Shown: in pieces, positions 2,406 through 13,616 of the stretch
How the letters are laid out: each line of letters begins with the position of its first letter
Numbering within the stretch: position 1 is the stretch's first letter
Assembly (NCBI RefSeq): GCF_014284125.1
Contig: NZ_JACOFX010000004.1
Span: forward strand, 248,001-312,000
Direction of reading: 5' to 3'
DNA: 64,000 nucleotides
Origin: Undibacterium umbellatum
GTDB taxonomy: Bacteria > Pseudomonadota > Gammaproteobacteria > Burkholderiales > Burkholderiaceae_D
Position numbers and translations under genes: made by a program
The notes under the pieces: generated by a model
Told to the model about the DNA's origin: nothing
The model's database searches: none
Seen by the model: the letters and a program-made list of their open reading frames with translations, nothing else

Positions 2406-4214
2406 ATGTCAGAACAGACTTATGAAATAGGATTAGTGGGCGCCGGCGCTATCTCGGCAGGTGCCTATACCGGCGGCGTCGTCGATTTCATGGTGCAGGC
2501 ACTCGATGCCTGGTATGCTGCCAAGGAGCAAGACCAGCAAAACAGCAACACCACTGTGCCTCCGCATGATGTCAAACTGTCGGTGTTTTCCGGTGCTTCT
2601 GCAGGTGCCATGACCGCCGCCATCGCCACCGCCTATCTGGCCTCAGAACAGCCACCTGTTACCAGCCCCGACGATGCCCGCAACAAGGCAGGCCAAAACA
2701 AACTCTATGACAGTTGGGTAGAACGCATCGACATCAGCCACCTGCTAGAGAGCAAAGACCTGGCACATGACAACGCCCCCGTCACCTCTCTGCTGGACTC
2801 CAGCATCCTCAGCGACATCGCCAACAGCGGCGTCTCCATCAACCCGCGCCCCGCACCGCGCCCGTACCTGGCCAGCAACTTTGAACTCATCCTCACCGTC
2901 ACCAACCTGCGCGGCATTCCCTATGGCTTCAACCTCCTTGGCAGCCAGCAAGGTAGCTACAATATGTCCCTGCATGCCGACTATGTTCATTTTCGCATCA
3001 ACCAGAACGGCGACCAAGCCCTGCCAGACCGCCACAGCATGCGCTGGGTCGACTTCCAGACCGACTCCCCCATCAAAGACAAACTCAAGCTGGCCGCGCT
3101 GGCCTCCGGTGCCTTCCCCTTCGGCCTGGCACCACGCCTGCTCGACAACTCCATCGCCAGCGCCCCGGCAACTGACCTGTATGGCGCCCGTAGCTGGCCC
3201 GTACCCACGCCCGACGCTGTTCCCCACCAATGCACCAGCTACCGCAACATCCCTGCCAGTTTTGGCCAGTTGCCGCCAGAATACCACTACGCCTATTATT
3301 GCGTCGATGGCGGCGTCATGAACAATGAACCGCTGGAACTGGCACGCAAAACCCTGCTCACCGATGGCCAGCACAATCCGCGCGAAGGCAACAAAGCCAC
3401 CAAGGGTCTGCTGCTGATCGACCCCTTCCCCAATAACAGCGAATTTACCCAGCAATACCCGGCCAGCCCGGAAGTGCCCGACATCATCAGCACCGGCATG
3501 GCCCTGTTCTCTGCCCTCACCAACCAGGCTCGCTTCAAACCCGATGAACTCTTGCTGGCCGCAGATGAAAACGTCTATTCCCGCTTTATGGTCGCCCCCA
3601 GCCGCGACAATTCCGCCACCCCCATCGCCTGTGGCACCCTCGGTGGTTTTGGCGGCTTCCTCAAGCAGGATTTCCGCGCCCACGACTTTTTCCTGGGTCG
3701 TCGCAATATGCAGAAATTCCTCAAAGACCACTTCGTCCTGCCAGAAAACAACCCCCTGTTCGAACACTGGCCAGAAGAAATGCGCGCCAAATATTGCGTA
3801 AAAGACAAAGACGGCAAACCCCTGCGCTACCAGGAACAGCAACCAGGCCAGAATCAAGGTGAGGGCGAGGGTGAAGAGCAGGGCGAGATCGAGAAGCAGG
3901 ACAAGGACACAGTCAAAATCCCAGCTCCGCGCCTGCTGCCCATCATCCCCCTGGTCAACAACAGCCTCATCGACGGATGCTACAAACCAGTCTGGCCCAG
4001 CTATAGCCAGGACGAACTTGAACAACTGCGCAGCCAGATCAAAAACCGCCTCGACAACGTGGTGGACCATCTGATCCAGCATTACCTGAGCAAACAATGG
4101 CTGATCACCCGCTGGATAGCCCAATTCGTCGTCTTCAGAAAGAAGCCAGAAATCCTCGACAAAGCATGCGTCTATATCAGCGCTGAATTGAAAAAGGCAG
4201 GCATCATGACATAA
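2406..4214 (+). CDS. Patatin-like phospholipase family protein
   Basis: 602-residue patatin-fold acyl hydrolase that would cleave acyl chains from phospholipids or related lipids with a Ser-Asp dyad. The N-terminus has a Gly-rich oxyanion-hole segment (GLVGAGAISAGAYTGG, residues 9-24), the nucleophile elbow GASAG (Ser65) and the dyad motif VDGGVMNNEP (Asp301). Residues about 480-500 form a Gln/Glu/Gly-rich linker before a helical C-terminal region. There is no signal peptide. An AGGAG-type ribosome site precedes the ATG. With the DUF2235 lipase upstream it makes a two-lipase locus, which suggests an effector or antibacterial role, though a housekeeping esterase cannot be excluded. Codon use matches the neighbours. 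Confidence 0.85.
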   Translation: MSEQTYEIGLVGAGAISAGAYTGGVVDFMVQALDAWYAAKEQDQQNSNTTVPPHDVKLSVFSGASAGAMTAAIATAYLASEQPPVTSPDDARNKAGQNKLYDSWVERIDISHLLESKDLAHDNAPVTSLLDSSILSDIANSGVSINPRPAPRPYLASNFELILTVTNLRGIPYGFNLLGSQQGSYNMSLHADYVHFRINQNGDQALPDRHSMRWVDFQTDSPIKDKLKLAALASGAFPFGLAPRLLDNSIASAPATDLYGARSWPVPTPDAVPHQCTSYRNIPASFGQLPPEYHYAYYCVDGGVMNNEPLELARKTLLTDGQHNPREGNKATKGLLLIDPFPNNSEFTQQYPASPEVPDIISTGMALFSALTNQARFKPDELLLAADENVYSRFMVAPSRDNSATPIACGTLGGFGGFLKQDFRAHDFFLGRRNMQKFLKDHFVLPENNPLFEHWPEEMRAKYCVKDKDGKPLRYQEQQPGQNQGEGEGEEQGEIEKQDKDTVKIPAPRLLPIIPLVNNSLIDGCYKPVWPSYSQDELEQLRSQIKNRLDNVVDHLIQHYLSKQWLITRWIAQFVVFRKKPEILDKACVYISAELKKAGIMT

Positions 4215-6986: not shown

Positions 6987-7544
6987 ATGCCTGCTCTGCT
7001 CTGGGATCGCAAAAGCGTGCCGCCCGCTGCCACCGTGGTAGTTAAACGAATCGAAGGTTTCTTCAGCAACCCATACGACGATAACGGAGCCTTACCTGGC
7101 GGCACCTGGACAATTGGTTACGGCACCATCGTCGATGCTGACGGCAAGGCGGTGACGCCGCGAACGGCTGCGATCACCGAAGCCCAGGCGCAAGAATTAC
7201 TTCGACGTGACATGGGCGGCGCGGCGCGAGATGTCGCCCAGCGCGTCAACGTGGAATTGACCGAAAATGAAGCGGCTGCTCTGATCTCCTGGACCTACAA
7301 CTTGGGTGGCGGCAATCTGTCCAAGTCGACCATGCTAGTCAAGTTGAACTCCCATCAGAAATCTGGCGTGCCGACCGAGATGCGTAAATGGATTAACCAA
7401 GAAGGCAAGCCTTTGGTCGGCTTGTTGCGCCGGCGCTGGGCCGAGGCCGCCATCTTCAGCGGCATCGATCCCATCAATGCTTGCGTGCTTGCCTGGAAAA
7501 ACATCGATTCGCTCGACGACTGGCCCGATTTCCCCAATGCTTGA
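6987..7544 (+). CDS. GH24 (T4-type) lysozyme / endolysin-like muramidase
   Basis: 185-residue glycoside hydrolase family 24 protein that would cleave the MurNAc-GlcNAc bond of peptidoglycan. The catalytic signature is visible: Glu23 in KRIEGFF, Asp31/32 in NPYDDNG and the TIGYGT motif (Thr42-Tyr45). The C-terminal helical lobe contains NEAAALISWTYNLGGG and RRRWAEAAIFSG, standard for phage-type lysozymes. Length is normal for a single-domain endolysin. There is no signal peptide or SAR helix, and no holin, spanin or phage structural gene nearby, so this is not an intact prophage lysis cassette. It could be a domesticated phage enzyme or an effector-type muramidase. AAAGGAG precedes the ATG. 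Confidence 0.88.
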   Translation: MPALLWDRKSVPPAATVVVKRIEGFFSNPYDDNGALPGGTWTIGYGTIVDADGKAVTPRTAAITEAQAQELLRRDMGGAARDVAQRVNVELTENEAAALISWTYNLGGGNLSKSTMLVKLNSHQKSGVPTEMRKWINQEGKPLVGLLRRRWAEAAIFSGIDPINACVLAWKNIDSLDDWPDFPNA

Positions 7545-7891: not shown

Positions 7892-8132
7892 AAACTAGCA
7901 CTATGCCGCAATGGCGAGTTTTTGTTTCGGAGCCCCACCCACCCAAGGCCATGTTGCGCCTTTGGTGACTGTATGGCCAAAGCCACCCTGTGCCGCAATC
8001 CCGTACTTCTTCCACAGTATCAAACAGATGATGGGATACCCATCGATAGCGCGGTGGGTATCGTGCCGCGCTTGCCGCTTTGGTTTTGAAAACCAACCTG
8101 CTTCGCATCGAAATTGTTGTTAAACGCATCAT
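7885..8132 (-). pseudogene. IS3-family transposase (OrfB) C-terminal remnant
   Basis: On the minus strand the translation includes SHHLFDTVEEVRDCGTGWLW followed by PYSHQRRNMALGGW, recognisable as the end of an IS3-family integrase-core transposase, which typically reads WLWTYNHERPNMALGG. The catalytic DDE residues and all upstream sequence are gone, and the tail after MALGGW does not match a normal C-terminus. It is a decayed fragment lying between the MITE and the VioB-like genes. The assignment rests on the conserved C-terminal motif only. Confidence 0.6.
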
Positions 8133-8346
8133 TCATGCAAATTTAACAAAATAATGCTGGCATTCTTATTATCATATAGTAAAGTCATTATATTAATTTT
8201 CATCCGTCTGCCTGCTTCTTGTCTACCGCCTGTGTATGAGGTGGCAGACAGCTAGCAGGCGGCAACAGACTGGCCTTATGGTCAGCCTGCTCTTGCTCCA
8301 TCCTTTCCACCCGCGACACCACCTTGCCAGCTATAGGAGAAGCGCC
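8133..8346. promoter_or_regulatory. Upstream region of the VioB-like operon
   Basis: About 215 bases. The first 80 (8133-8200) are strongly AT-rich and probably hold the promoter. A G/C-rich stretch with partial inverted repeats around 8205-8265 could form a leader hairpin. A textbook AGGAGA ribosome site (8335-8340) precedes not the ferritin-like gene but the small leader ORF at 8347. Confidence 0.35.
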
Positions 8347-8409
8347 ATGAACACCTCTTTGACTCTTGCCAGCCCCCAGCACCCCCACGCTATAAGGGGG
8401 CAAGCATGA
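8347..8409 (+). CDS. 20-codon leader ORF, translationally coupled to the VioB-like pair
   Basis: ATG at 8347 sits 6 bases after a strong AGGAGA site and opens a 20-codon frame (MNTSLTLASPQHPHAIRGQA) ending in TGA at 8407-8409. This stop overlaps the ATG of the ferritin-like gene at 8406 as ATGA, the classic arrangement for translational coupling. The downstream gene also has its own GGGGG site at 8396-8400 inside the leader. The peptide is slightly Pro/His-rich but has no run of a single amino acid that would suggest classic attenuation. It may alternatively be just an untranslated segment with a chance frame. Confidence 0.4.
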   Translation: MNTSLTLASPQHPHAIRGQA

Positions 8410-9413
8410 TACGCCTGCAACTCAACCCCATTGCCAGCATCGCCGATGCCCAGGCCATGTTGCAAACCGCCATCAATGTTGAATTTGGCACCCTGCCGCC
8501 CTATCTGTATGCCCAGCTCAGCATACTGCCGGGTAGCAATGCCCCCGCCATGGCGCGGCTGCAAACCATTACCCATCAGGAAATGATCCACCTCTGCCTG
8601 GGCGCCAACATCCTCAATTCTCTCGGCGGCAGCCCCAAGCTGGTGGCACCGGTCTATCCTGGGCCCCTGCCGGGCGACATCGGCTTTGATGGCAAAGTGC
8701 TGACCCTGCACCTGCTGCCGTTTGGCAAGGACGCCATGAAACAGGGCATGGACATAGAAATGCCGGTAGACCCAATCGACTTCCCGCAGCTCAAAACGGC
8801 CACCCTGACTGCCACCAAGGCCGTCACCATCGGCCAGTTCTATGAAGCCCTCGATGCCTATCTGAAATCCCTGCCCGCCAGCGCCTGGCAGATGAACCGC
8901 AACCAGATCAGCGACGCCCAGTTCTTCCCTGGCCAGATCTTTGCCGTCAACAACTATGCCGATGCCCACCGCGCCATCCAGGTCATTGTCTCCGAAGGTG
9001 AAGCCACCAGCACCAGCCCGCTCGACTTCAGCAATGAACTGGCTCACTTCTACCGCTTTGAAGAAATCTACCGCAACCAGGTGCTCACCAGCATCCCGGC
9101 CAATCCCGGCTATGCCTGGGGTGCGCCGCTAGGCGTTGACTTTGCCAAATCCTACCCCGCCGTTAACGACCCACAATTGCTCGACTACAGCAAACAGCCA
9201 GAAGCCGCCCGTGCCGCCCAGCAAGCCTGCACCGTTGCCTACACCGCCATGGTCGACAGCCTTAACCTGGCCTTGAACGGCGATGCCGCCCAGCTTGGCA
9301 TTGCCGTACGCCGCATGTTTGACCTGCGTATGGCCGCCATCCACGTCCTGCAGACGCCGCTGGCCGACAAGAGCAAAGTGGCCGGACCGGCCTTCATCTA
9401 CCACGCTGCCTGA
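8406..9413 (+). CDS. Ferritin-like protein homologous to the C-terminal half of VioB/RebD
   Basis: 335 residues resembling the ferritin-like (iminophenyl-pyruvate dimer synthase type) domain that forms the C-terminal half of VioB and RebD. Metal-ligand motifs of a four-helix di-iron bundle are visible: Glu26 in NVEFGTLPPYLYAQ, Glu59/His62 in THQEMIHLCLGANIL, Glu197-Glu199 in VSEGEA, and His214/Glu219 in AHFYRFEEIY. The VioB equivalents are ALLEIAHEEMIHY and the later HFxRLxE motif. It is free-standing here, and the gene for the VioB N-terminal-type half follows 35 bases downstream, so gene order is reversed relative to the fused enzyme. No VioA, C, D or E gene is in the window, so violacein synthesis is not implied. 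The product is unknown; an oxidative step on an amine or imine substrate is an inference from the family. Confidence 0.82.
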   Translation: MIRLQLNPIASIADAQAMLQTAINVEFGTLPPYLYAQLSILPGSNAPAMARLQTITHQEMIHLCLGANILNSLGGSPKLVAPVYPGPLPGDIGFDGKVLTLHLLPFGKDAMKQGMDIEMPVDPIDFPQLKTATLTATKAVTIGQFYEALDAYLKSLPASAWQMNRNQISDAQFFPGQIFAVNNYADAHRAIQVIVSEGEATSTSPLDFSNELAHFYRFEEIYRNQVLTSIPANPGYAWGAPLGVDFAKSYPAVNDPQLLDYSKQPEAARAAQQACTVAYTAMVDSLNLALNGDAAQLGIAVRRMFDLRMAAIHVLQTPLADKSKVAGPAFIYHAA

Positions 9414-9448
9414 ACACGGCACACCGCAACGATCACGGGAGAAACAGC

Positions 9449-11347
9449 ATGAGCATTCTGCAACTACCACGCATCCACTTCAGGGGACAAATGTCCTGGG
9501 ACCCCATCGTCACCAACAACTACCCCAATTTCTATAATGAAGACACCGCCCAACCCGCCCTGACCCCATCTGAGAGCATGAACCAGTTCCGCCAGGCAGC
9601 CATTGAAGCTGCCAAGGGTGGCAACTGGAATCCGCACGGCACCCACCGCTCCGCCTTCTTTGACACCAGCGTCACAGCCGTTGACCTCGGCCATGGCCCG
9701 GTCACCACCGACAAACTGTGCGGCGCACCGGCGGTCCTTAACGCCATGCTGGTTGACCTGGAACCGTATGGTTCCTGCTCCTCACAATTATTCTTTGACA
9801 CACTGCGCTTTGGCATAGACGGCGGCTGCCGCATTGTCGCACCGCGTAATGAACGCTTCACCGCCCGCTACATCAACTTTAATCGCAACCCTTTCGGCTT
9901 TACTGCTGGCGGCGCCTCCGTCAACTGGCAAACTACATTCGCCACCGCTGGCCTCACCATCAACAGCCACGGCAGCGATGTCCTGCACGCCCTGCAGCAA
10001 GCCCTGCATGAGCCAGACGCACTTGGCCTGGTAGTCGCCTTCAATGCCTACCGCACCATTTATTTTGATGACCCCACGCTGCAAAATAGCAAGCCCCCCA
10101 GCATACCGGTACAAAACCAGCGCGAAATACTCTACCAAAAATTGCTGGCCGGTGGCTTCCAGCCAAATCCCGCCCGCAGCCTCATCGTCGGCACCATCGG
10201 CGTCTGGCGCAAGGGCGAAGCCACGCACGAACCGAGTGACCGCGCCCTCTTGCCCGATGCCAATGCCAAAGCCTTTGTCGCTACGGCCCATGCCCGCATA
10301 GACCGCGGCCATGTCAACCTCGATCTCTCCAACAGTATCAGCGAAACCGGCGCAGCCCTCATCAAGCAAGACCTTGGCACCCTGCAAGTGGTGGCCGTCG
10401 ATGCAGCCAGCAAAAAAGAATACCAACTGGCCAGCTTCAACTACCCCCAATATGACCGCCACGCCTATGAAGCCAGCGCCGGCATTGTCAGCGTGCCGCT
10501 CAACCCGGCCTTAAGCGCCGCCGACCTGGCCCATGCCGAACTGGCCGACTGGCAATTACGCAGTAGCAAAGAAGGCTTGCTGCTGAGTGAATCGGCGACC
10601 CGCATCATCCCGCAAAGCCCCAATCTCTACCTCGACCAGGGCCCGGCTGGCAACACCAAACTGCAACTCTACCTGCATGGCAAACCCGTGCAAAAAATCA
10701 GCGACGTCACCGTCTACCAAGTCAAAACCAACCTGCAGACCGAAGAACTGGACATCATCGGCACACAAGAACTTAAAACCAATGCCCAGGGCCAGCTCGT
10801 CATCAGCGCCGATGCCAGCACTGGCAATGTGTATGGCTACCTACCCCTGCTCGGAAAAAACCTGCCCCCCCCACCCGACCTGAAAGACGGCATCGACACA
10901 CAGACCTACACCTATGCCTACGTGCGCGTGCTGCCTGCCGACAGCGCCACTGCCGCCCTCCCACCAACCTGGGACAATGTGTACAAAAACGTCCTCATCA
11001 ACTGGAACGCCATGGCACCCTGCATGGACAACTGGCTAGACCTGGCCAACCCGGTACAAGTCCACAACTACGCCAGCATCCTGCAGCGCCTGACCGACCC
11101 CAAAGCTTTTGAAAGCTACCTCTTCATGCCCGTCACCCGCGACATGACAGTCGGGCAGCGCAGCCTGCTGAACAACTTCCTCAAGCAAGCCCTGCCTCAT
11201 CCAGCCGACCTGGTAGAAAAAGTCAGCACCCGCACGGTGGCCACCGCAGCACCAGTCAGTGCCAGCACAGCGCCCCAGCAACAGCCAAACGGCAAGCCCA
11301 ATTTTGTCGAGCTTAGCCGCAGCCTGCGCAATGTCGACAATGAATAA
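9449..11347 (+). CDS. VioB/RebD N-terminal-half-like protein
   Basis: 632 residues. The N-terminus MSILQLPRIHFRGQMSW matches the opening of VioB and RebD (MSILDFPRIHFRG in VioB, from memory), and later segments such as NNYPNFYN, INFNRNPFGF and VGTIGVWRKGE follow the same family. The protein ends at about residue 630, before the ferritin-like domain that completes VioB; that domain is supplied by the gene just upstream (335 residues). Together they total 967 residues, close to a full VioB of about 1000. A GGGAGAAAC ribosome site supports the start. The C-terminal 40 residues are a Thr/Ala/Gln-rich tail. The two products probably form a complex; function unknown. Confidence 0.78.
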   Translation: MSILQLPRIHFRGQMSWDPIVTNNYPNFYNEDTAQPALTPSESMNQFRQAAIEAAKGGNWNPHGTHRSAFFDTSVTAVDLGHGPVTTDKLCGAPAVLNAMLVDLEPYGSCSSQLFFDTLRFGIDGGCRIVAPRNERFTARYINFNRNPFGFTAGGASVNWQTTFATAGLTINSHGSDVLHALQQALHEPDALGLVVAFNAYRTIYFDDPTLQNSKPPSIPVQNQREILYQKLLAGGFQPNPARSLIVGTIGVWRKGEATHEPSDRALLPDANAKAFVATAHARIDRGHVNLDLSNSISETGAALIKQDLGTLQVVAVDAASKKEYQLASFNYPQYDRHAYEASAGIVSVPLNPALSAADLAHAELADWQLRSSKEGLLLSESATRIIPQSPNLYLDQGPAGNTKLQLYLHGKPVQKISDVTVYQVKTNLQTEELDIIGTQELKTNAQGQLVISADASTGNVYGYLPLLGKNLPPPPDLKDGIDTQTYTYAYVRVLPADSATAALPPTWDNVYKNVLINWNAMAPCMDNWLDLANPVQVHNYASILQRLTDPKAFESYLFMPVTRDMTVGQRSLLNNFLKQALPHPADLVEKVSTRTVATAAPVSASTAPQQQPNGKPNFVELSRSLRNVDNE

Positions 11348-11405
11348 GCAGAGGTGAAACAGAGAAAAGTAATATAGCGAAAAGCACCGAAGGCAGCACC
11401 AATGC

Positions 11406-11439
11406 AGGGCGCAGGCTTTTGTTCACGAGCCTGCGCCCT
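11406..11439 (+). terminator. Stem-loop after the VioB-like pair
   Basis: An 11-base perfect stem AGGGCGCAGGC / GCCTGCGCCCT with a loop of about 12 bases, about 60 bases past the stop codon. Only a weak TCTTCG follows, so it may be a factor-assisted terminator or an mRNA 3' cap. Confidence 0.45.
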
Positions 11440-11597
11440 CTTCGTCACAGATGAATACAGGGCAAACTACCGCAGCGTTAGCACCTGTTGACGATCTTGA
11501 ACGTAAGCGCGAGCCTGGCGTATGCGCTACATAAGCTGCTCGTGAACGAGAACCCATTTCGCTTTTATGCCAGATCAAAATGAAATCAGGTCCTACA

Positions 11598-11835: not shown

Positions 11836-12055
11836 TGACCACAGCCTTTTTTCATGCCTCGATTTTAGATTTTCCATGCAGTTATCCTGGCTTATTTACG
11901 CAGGCGCACGGATTCCGATTGTCCCAAAAAGCCAATATGACTGCACGAAGCAAACGATCCTTTTCCGCATGCTCTGCTTTGCGTATTTCTTTTCACGTGA
12001 CCACACTGAAAGCTGGCGCAATGGACGTTCTATTCAGTATCAAGAAAGGATCTCA
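11836..12055. other. Unassigned sequence between IS110 remnant and VIT fragment
   Basis: A frame runs through here from the IS remnant, but its translation has no recognised family and mixed composition. I regard it as junction DNA between two decayed elements. Confidence 0.35.
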
Positions 12056-12059
12056 CGCA

Positions 12060-12460
12060 TGGCCTATCGACACAGAGAGTTTCACAGGCTGGAAAATATA
12101 GGATGGTTGCGTGCTGCTGCTTTAGGTGCAAACGATGGCATAGTTTCGACTTCAAGTTTGATACTTGACGTTGCTGCGGCACATGCAACCCACAGTAGCA
12201 TAGTCATTACCGGTATGGCGGACCTGATTGCTGCTGCCAAGGGAAAAATAATGCACTGCCTGACGGTGCTTCAAATCCGCAAGGGCTTGCGGGTTCGCCA
12301 TGCAAATCCAGATAGGCAGGTGCAGCGTGGGCGATACTCAGGAAAGTGCCTGGGCGATCGGTCGTCAAGCTAGCAGCAGATCACGCGAGCACCCAACTGC
12401 AGTGCGATACGCGCCTGCCGCATCTCGCACCGCAACGCAGAAAACAAATAGAGTGAAACC
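12060..12460 (+). pseudogene. VIT1/CCC1-family iron/manganese transporter N-terminal fragment
   Basis: The translation from ATG 12060 contains GWLRAAALGANDGIVSTSSL followed by ILDVAAAHATHSSIVITGMADLIA, a clear match to the first two membrane helices of VIT1/CCC1 (nodulin-21-like) transporters, including the conserved GANDGIVST. After that the frame loses similarity. Around 12375-12430 a different frame reads AADHASTQLQCDTRL, reminiscent of the cytoplasmic metal-binding helices that follow in intact proteins. The rest of the roughly 230-residue transporter is absent. It is a decayed gene, probably disrupted by the same rearrangements that left the adjacent IS110 end. Confidence 0.65.
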
Positions 12461-12587
12461 ATGCACACAACTGGATACAAATTGTTGCAACTCTTTGAAA
12501 AATGAAAAGCTAAGATGGCGCTCCCAGCTTGACATTTATTGATGTGCAAGCCATTCCCATAGCAGAATATCTACCCCAAATAATACA

Positions 12588-13616
12588 GTGACACACAAAT
12601 CCACCACAGCCCATACTCTGGCTTGCATCAGCCTGGCCTTGCTGGCTACCGCTTGCAGCAAGAAAAACGAAGATCCCTCTGCCCCAGCAATGGCATCCAT
12701 GCCAGCAGTAGCGTCTGTCGCTGCAAGCACCCCGGCAGCAACTGCCAGCAATGCAGCAGCCAAACCTGCAGAGGCTGGTTCCAGCAAGTTGCAAGACTAT
12801 ATCGCCTGCTATAACAAGCTGGACGGTGACGCCCACCGCAGCATTGCGCGCTATCAAAGCTGGGTCAAGGACATGGACAAAGGCCCAAACGGAAAAGAAA
12901 TGGTGGTGTATGGTCTGTATAAAATCGATATGGATGACATCGCCAAATGCAAAGCAAGTTTTGGCAAGGCCGCACAAAGCAAGCTCGACAATGCCGCGAC
13001 TGCCTATATCGACATCCTGAGTGAACTGGGCGCGCTGGTTACTGAAGCAGAAGTGTACTACAGCCGCGACAATTATAAGGACGATGCCTTTGCCAAAGGC
13101 AAGAAACTGCATGGCCCACTAGCCGATGCGATGAAACGCTTTGAAGAAAAAAGCAATGTCTTCTCGAATGAAATCGAAGTCGAGAATGACAAGGCCCTGG
13201 ATGCAGAAATGCAGCAACTGGAAAAATCCGAAGGCCGCCAGCTGCCCTATTTGCAAATGGCATTGATGAGCAAGGCCAAGCAACTGGTGCGCCTGATCGG
13301 TGAAGAAAGTTTCGACGCTGCTGCCGCCGGTAAATTGTTGGCCGACTATGAAAGTCTTACCGATGAAGCCATCGCCTACGCCAAGAAGAATAGCGAAAGC
13401 GCGGCCAGCGGCTGGTCCACTCTTGAACGTGCAACAGAAGATTATCGCAAAGCTGCAAAAGAACGCGTACGCCGTATCCGCGACAAGGTGGCGTACAGCG
13501 AAGGTGAAAAAATGATGCTGAAGCCAGGCTCAGGCTGGATGGTGGAAGGCAGTCAGGAAAAAGTCACCAAAGCCTACAATGCGATGATAGAGGCGAGCAA
13601 CCGCATGAATCGCTGA
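12588..13616 (+). CDS. YiiG-family (DUF3829) lipoprotein
   Basis: 342 residues with a lipoprotein signal ending in LLATAC (Cys23), then an Ala/Ser/Pro-rich linker of about 45 residues and a long all-helical domain of the DUF3829/YiiG type. The domain includes the conserved N-terminal YIACYNKLDGDAHRSI segment and the C-terminal SGWMVEGS and VTKAYNAMIEASN region. It is predicted to be anchored to a membrane facing the periplasm; its molecular role is unknown in the family. The start is GTG at 12588, chosen because it gives a proper signal peptide; no strong ribosome site is visible. A strong terminator follows. Confidence 0.78.
   Translation: MTHKSTTAHTLACISLALLATACSKKNEDPSAPAMASMPAVASVAASTPAATASNAAAKPAEAGSSKLQDYIACYNKLDGDAHRSIARYQSWVKDMDKGPNGKEMVVYGLYKIDMDDIAKCKASFGKAAQSKLDNAATAYIDILSELGALVTEAEVYYSRDNYKDDAFAKGKKLHGPLADAMKRFEEKSNVFSNEIEVENDKALDAEMQQLEKSEGRQLPYLQMALMSKAKQLVRLIGEESFDAAAAGKLLADYESLTDEAIAYAKKNSESAASGWSTLERATEDYRKAAKERVRRIRDKVAYSEGEKMMLKPGSGWMVEGSQEKVTKAYNAMIEASNRMNR

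Follow-up and report, generated by a model that had tools for sequence, protein, structure and literature searches.

The window analyzed here, a 64,000-nucleotide (nt) stretch of the 6.46-Mb Undibacterium umbellatum genome (contig NZ_JACOFX010000004.1, positions 248,001 to 312,000), carries two adjacent genes whose products are relatives of the two halves of VioB and RebD, encoded separately and in swapped order. The bisindole core of violacein is built by VioB, that of rebeccamycin by RebD. The first gene (8406..9413, + strand; assigned from its open reading frame (ORF), Pfam, NCBIfam and alignment) encodes a ferritin-like protein of 335 amino acids (aa) belonging to PF12902, the counterpart of the C-terminal half of VioB/RebD. 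The second (9449..11347, + strand; assigned from its ORF, NCBIfam, alignment and an AlphaFold model) encodes a 632-aa homologue of the N-terminal half, termed the N-half. The two ORFs share a strand, are separated by 35 nt and lie exactly where an earlier description of this DNA, the sequence-only reading, had placed them.

The 335-aa product matches PF12902 at 4.3e-48 and 164.5 bits, above the gathering cut-off of 22.3; a Pfam scan of the 632-aa product returned no match. On the NCBIfam model for VioB, TIGR04492, the 632-aa product scores 51.8 bits (3e-14; model positions 266-581 of 1003) and the 335-aa product 19.0 bits (2.5e-4; model positions 667-846). Our yardstick for VioB was a 1003-aa protein (L049) that scores 1746.7 bits on this model, above its cut-off of 1250. 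Those for RebD were three plasmid-encoded proteins of 1079-1205 aa from Pseudonocardia (L095), S. clavuligerus (L096) and Nocardiopsis (L099); "RebD-like" is a label given in this analysis to these proteins, whose genes lie beside FAD oxidoreductase and P450 genes, with halogenase genes also present in L095. Residues 1-578 of the 632-aa protein align with residues 1-580 of the VioB yardstick (21% identity, E 3.6e-12), the two sharing the N-terminal start MSIL-x-x-PR-x-x-F-x-G, and residues 36-234 of the 335-aa protein align with residues 649-844 (23% identity, E 3.6e-5). Pairwise BLAST of the ferritin half against the RebD-like proteins was weak (E 0.03-0.23), and in a control one shuffled sequence obtained E 0.014 with the N-half. 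Profiles were built from the 16 reversed pairs described below, those of the N-half (18 rows) also including two N-halves from L046 and L047; L041 was omitted from the folding and profile alignments. The N-half profile scored VioB at 100.9 bits (4.2e-31) and the RebD-like proteins at 89.3-99.1 bits (1.5e-30 to 1.4e-27), and the ferritin profile gave 25.2 and 17.4-29.9 bits, respectively. The best of 100 shuffled controls reached 1.7 bits (E 0.45) with the N-half profile and 2.3 bits with the ferritin profile. Judged by these comparisons, both products are homologous to halves of VioB and RebD, which bears out the sequence-only reading on its central point. Its remark that the combined length of 967 aa equals one VioB is not diagnostic, given the lengths of the yardsticks.

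Six residues of the ferritin half stand out in the alignments, in which some ferritin rows begin a few codons inside the gene. E26, E59, H62 and E118 are kept in all 49 C-half rows and E199 and H214 in all 48 rows ungapped there, VioB and the three RebD-like proteins included. The sequence-only reading had singled out HFYRFEE as a ligand motif; its first histidine (H214) is indeed invariant, but it alone, and E220 is lost in VioB and the RebD-like rows. The C-half profile matches the solved structures 3hl1 (1.1e-26) and bacterioferritin 1nf4 (8.3e-6), with the helix-1 glutamate and the ExxH motif aligned. Because these are ferritin-like proteins, and the number and kind of ligands fit, the four-Glu/two-His set is a candidate ligand set that probably binds two irons. 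In its AlphaFold model the N-half is rich in beta structure, residues ~382-496 forming an Ig-like domain and residues 499-592 being helical; a sequence search found no solved structure for it. A VioB structure was missing according to a 2021 review. PMC9705886 describes heme b and catalase activity in VioB, and this paper and PMC10851217 describe VioB and RebD as heme-containing, imine-coupling enzymes.

In order to find similar loci, genome contigs were scanned with an alignment of three close N-halves, which yielded 20 loci. The scan is biased towards window-like N-halves, and because it started from such sequences, shares among the 20 loci are not frequencies in nature. A ferritin gene lies directly before the N-half gene on the same strand in 16 of them (L029-L044), distributed over Pseudomonadota (8), Acidobacteriota (4), Verrucomicrobiota (2), Planctomycetota (1) and Myxococcota (1), and the two genes overlap by 4 nt at start and stop in 6 of the 16. 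A 17th reversed locus (L045) has a divergent 600-aa PF12902 protein before the N-half; of the remaining loci, L046 and L047 lack a ferritin gene and L048 is cut off. The reversed order is thus recurrent and no singular oddity of this genome, and pairs with the N-half gene first also exist.

Trees of both halves, all unrooted, support common inheritance. In the quick trees (that of the N-half contains all 52 rows), the 16 reversed loci and the window form one clade with branch values of 100 (N-half) and 96 (C-half), and VioB/RebD fall outside it. A more careful N-half tree omits 11 of the 52 rows (three whose branches are very long, three N-only rows that are distant and five that are near-duplicates or carry inserts); it groups 15 reversed rows at 100/99 and places VioB and the RebD-like proteins in a separate clade at 100/100. 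In none of the three trees, two quick and one careful, does L045 fall within the reversed clade. Within the clade, N-half and C-half distances are correlated (r = 0.871), a value reached in none of 5000 permutations. Because the swapped pair recurs in several bacterial phyla, we conclude that it represents a real, uncharacterised oxidase family and not a broken gene. A literature search turned up no account of a split or reversed VioB, which is weak evidence of absence, as subscription papers lay mostly outside the search. The N-half is rare in the genome samples: the window protein was found in 2 of 41 genomes (its own and G004) and in 2 of 398 genomes of the phylum (its own and, as a distant match, G169), and N-half profiles found matches in 6 of 369 genomes of the class, its own included, and in 5 of 227, 1 of 230 and 1 of 214 genomes with the centre genomes included.

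The nearest relative of the window pair is that of Undibacterium hunanense (G004), whose N-half is 90% identical. Nucleotide similarity between the two loci, also 90%, spans 8093..11462 (+ strand) and the flanks beyond it differ, so that the pair behaves like a small cassette in differing surroundings. The ratio dN/dS against U. hunanense is ~0.07 for the ferritin gene and ~0.18 for the N-half gene; both are under purifying selection. A 20-codon mini-ORF read at 8347..8409 (+ strand) overlaps the ferritin start by 4 nt, and mini-ORFs of 17-20 codons precede the ferritin gene at all four Undibacterium loci (the window, L029, L030 and L031). The 4-nt overlap between mini-ORF stop and ferritin start is repeated at L029, and also at L030 and L031 if the ATG beside the mini-ORF stop is the ferritin start. 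It may be hypothesized that the mini-ORF has a role in translational coupling. A promoter-like site matching 10 of 12 consensus positions lies at 8143..8172 (+ strand), a weak prediction, as there are four such sites in the region and a mean of 2.5 in shuffled sequence.

Pairs in the opposite order and fused forms were also found. Eleven N-first two-gene pairs were seen, six of them on plasmids of Azospirillum (2), Mycetohabitans (2), Gloeothece and Aureibacter. All six have at least 8 kb of flank; genes of ebo clusters adjoin four of them (L016 in part, L018, L020 and L097), and none adjoins L017 or L098. The other five N-first pairs have flanks of ~1.5 kb, too short to judge ebo linkage. A fused VioB-like gene lies between ebo genes in three Undibacterium genomes (L005, L074 and L075), among them the window's own, where it occurs outside the window, on contig C37 (region L005:4226-14258). 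In trees of either half, this fused gene groups with the N-first pairs and apart from VioB/RebD, from which it follows that fused and split states have changed at least twice. Fused forms thus sit in at least two separate places in the trees, and two fusions or an ancestral fusion followed by several splits are both possible. The suggestion in the sequence-only reading that the two-gene arrangement is ancestral is not established by these data, because the trees are unrooted. In U. hunanense, which has kept the reversed pair, all that was found of the fused gene at the ebo cluster was a remnant (L107:11975-12391, - strand; a frame of ~139 codons, 91 bits). A few kb upstream of one Mycetohabitans N-first pair are genes for a LodA/GoxA-family oxidase and a tryptophan 7-halogenase (L020:1-2572, + strand). 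PF12902 genes near lodA-like genes are described for fungi in PMC4417212.

The window pair shares its two halves with the ebo-linked N-first pairs (Mycetohabitans, Aureibacter, Gloeothece) and the fused Undibacterium gene. It differs in gene order and clade, and no ebo gene was found in the 64 kb of the window (phmmer, 1e-8). EboE was detected in 10 of 16 genomes tested, namely in 9 of 15 with a reversed pair and in one cyanobacterium with an F7-linked N-half (see below); the search did not include the genomes of L032 and L041, and since four of the nine reversed-pair positives are Undibacterium, the 15 genomes are not independent. Among 14 control genomes, which were not matched to these, there was one match and none over the cut-off. 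A region of 16-20 kb surrounding EboE in the remaining five EboE-positive genomes with a reversed pair yielded no N-half, C-half, F1 or F7 gene. The words "ferritin" and "VioB" are absent from the texts of two ebo papers (PMC5133447, PMC6282210).

Some N-halves that lack a ferritin partner have a different neighbor. In 9 of 15 ferritin-less N-half rows, a gene of a family designated F7 lies directly upstream (among them L016:11110-12444, -; L046:1154-2578, +; L047:2523-3857, +; L013:3292-4410, -; and L028, upstream of 1501). Five of these nine were used to build the F7 profile and four are new matches; a CXXCH motif near the C-terminus is common to the five aligned members, in which alone the motif was read. 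No Pfam match was obtained for the four F7 members scanned. L028 belongs to the window's own genome, where it is the third N-half gene. A direct complex between F7 and the N-half is unsure, because F7 members have N-termini resembling signal peptides (L016 and L047, judged by eye) and the window N-half does not. In G169 (L014), two F7/N-half units lie beside ebo genes.

The genes around the reversed pairs are varied. Members of a lipoprotein-like family, F1, occur near L035 (7680-8804, -), L037 (11783-12847, +), L038, L042 (7610-8584, -) and L044 (7972-8931, +), and also near four N-first pairs (L016, L020, L022 and L098, the last at 11935-13053, +); six F1 members scanned had no Pfam match. 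At L032 the pair is followed directly by genes for gluconate dehydrogenase subunit 3 and a GMC oxidoreductase, and at L030 an ORF ~5.5 kb upstream of the ferritin gene has a weak halogenase match (4.5e-4). No RebC- or RebP-like ORF was found among ORFs of at least 100 aa in the window, which agrees with the sequence-only reading, or at the 17 reversed loci (phmmer, 1e-5). PADLOC returned no defence-system match, and a search for phage genes in PHROG gave none for either protein. Upstream of the window pair lie genes for a protein with a Tle1-like type VI secretion phospholipase domain and a patatin-like phospholipase (327-1694 and 2406-4214, + strand) and for a phage-type lysozyme (6987-7544, + strand), a stretch without a nucleotide match at the other three Undibacterium loci. 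A further, long PF12902 protein (668 aa) is encoded on the window's own contig (L006:7543-9552, - strand).

We consider it probable, if by no means certain, that the products of the two genes assemble into a single heteromeric oxidase using O2 or peroxide, which resembles VioB/RebD but works in trans, probably on an amino-acid-derived substrate. The 335-aa subunit would be the ferritin-like, probably diiron component, and the 632-aa subunit would be a scaffold and the probable substrate-binding half, docking on its partner in the manner of the N- and C-halves within VioB. The pair would oxidise or couple a small amino-acid-derived substrate, probably of an aromatic imine or enamine type, supplied by an enzyme encoded elsewhere. 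Homology of both halves, conservation of the ligands, adjacency and co-inheritance across phyla, and purifying selection are what was observed; from them we infer the complex, the metal, the substrate class and the reaction.

Several results weigh against this proposal. No RebO-like ORF was found in the window, as the sequence-only reading had also noted, or at the 17 related loci (L029-L045; phmmer, 1e-5), so that the clustering with a tryptophan oxidase gene (VioA/RebO) expected of the VioB/RebD superfamily is missing, although amino-acid oxidases were not searched genome-wide. No neighbor is common to all reversed loci, the commonest, F1, being near 5 of 16, none of them Undibacterium. The pairing of N-halves with a CXXCH-family protein in place of the ferritin indicates that not every N-half needs a ferritin partner. 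The scores of the window pair on TIGR04492 are far under the cut-off, and 13 columns fixed in the four VioB/RebD-like rows are near-fixed (at least 16 of 17 rows) with other residues in the reversed clade. These 13 columns argue for a different substrate or reaction. Because of the low scores and the lack of RebO-, RebC- or RebP-like ORFs in the window, the pair is not a member of VioB, from which it also differs in being two genes in C-N order and not a single polypeptide in N-C order.

These same differences bear on the stricter alternative, that the pair is a two-subunit imine-coupling enzyme that dimerises indole-pyruvate-type imines supplied by an oxidase of tryptophan or another aromatic amino acid with its gene elsewhere in the genome, which we regard as doubtful. 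Homology to the iminophenyl-pyruvate dimer synthase VioB and to the RebD-like proteins, taken for the chromopyrrolic acid synthases RebD/StaD, extends over both halves and all six ligand positions; of the 101 columns identical across the four VioB/RebD-like rows, 27 are unchanged in 16 or all 17 of the reversed rows; and a branch of 100 in the quick and 100/100 in the careful N-half tree sets VioB/RebD and the reversed pairs apart from the N-first pairs. In the careful tree, however, the branch that brings VioB/RebD nearer to the reversed clade has weak support (67/83), and in the C-half tree VioB/RebD group with ferritin-only proteins and are separated from the reversed pairs (100). The near-fixed differences, the low VioB scores and the absence of nearby RebO/RebC/RebP-like ORFs tell against imine coupling as well. 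The RebD-like proteins differ from the split window pair in being fused, and the gene immediately upstream of each codes for an FAD oxidoreductase.

It is rather improbable that the two genes act independently, as a stand-alone ferritin-like oxidase beside the gene for an unrelated beta-rich protein. Ferritin-half relatives occur in 164 plasmid records and N-half relatives in 8, and both ferritin-only plasmid loci examined have a GMC oxidoreductase gene directly upstream and, unlike the window, no N-half gene; the 335-aa half is related in sequence to such stand-alone PF12902 proteins, including 3hl1, and N-halves with F7 upstream do without a ferritin. Against independence stand the single co-inherited clade in both trees, the 4-nt overlaps and the repeated fusion of the same two halves. 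That the pair is a decayed or rearranged former VioB gene without function was rejected as exceedingly improbable on dN/dS and conservation, its frames being intact and its arrangement kept in five phyla, even though the U. hunanense remnant shows that decay occurs in the family.

Beyond the preferred reading of a two-subunit oxidase, we tentatively propose, as a possibility that we hold with low confidence, that a broad modular family, as yet undescribed, is built around the VioB N-half and exchanges one redox partner for another. The partner would be either a diiron ferritin-like protein (its gene preceding or following that of the N-half, or the two fused) or an exported c-heme (CXXCH) protein encoded directly upstream; the products would be amino-acid-derived dimers carried outward by ebo proteins, and VioB/RebD would be one late fused branch.

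Since nature has already split this form, each half can be produced and assayed on its own or mixed with the other, and such work could reveal to which of them substrate, metal and heme bind. Proteins so far called "hypothetical", with no Pfam match among those tested, become a recognisable family, which suggests uncharacterised oxidative chemistry in Acidobacteriota, Planctomycetota, Verrucomicrobiota, Myxococcota and Pseudomonadota.

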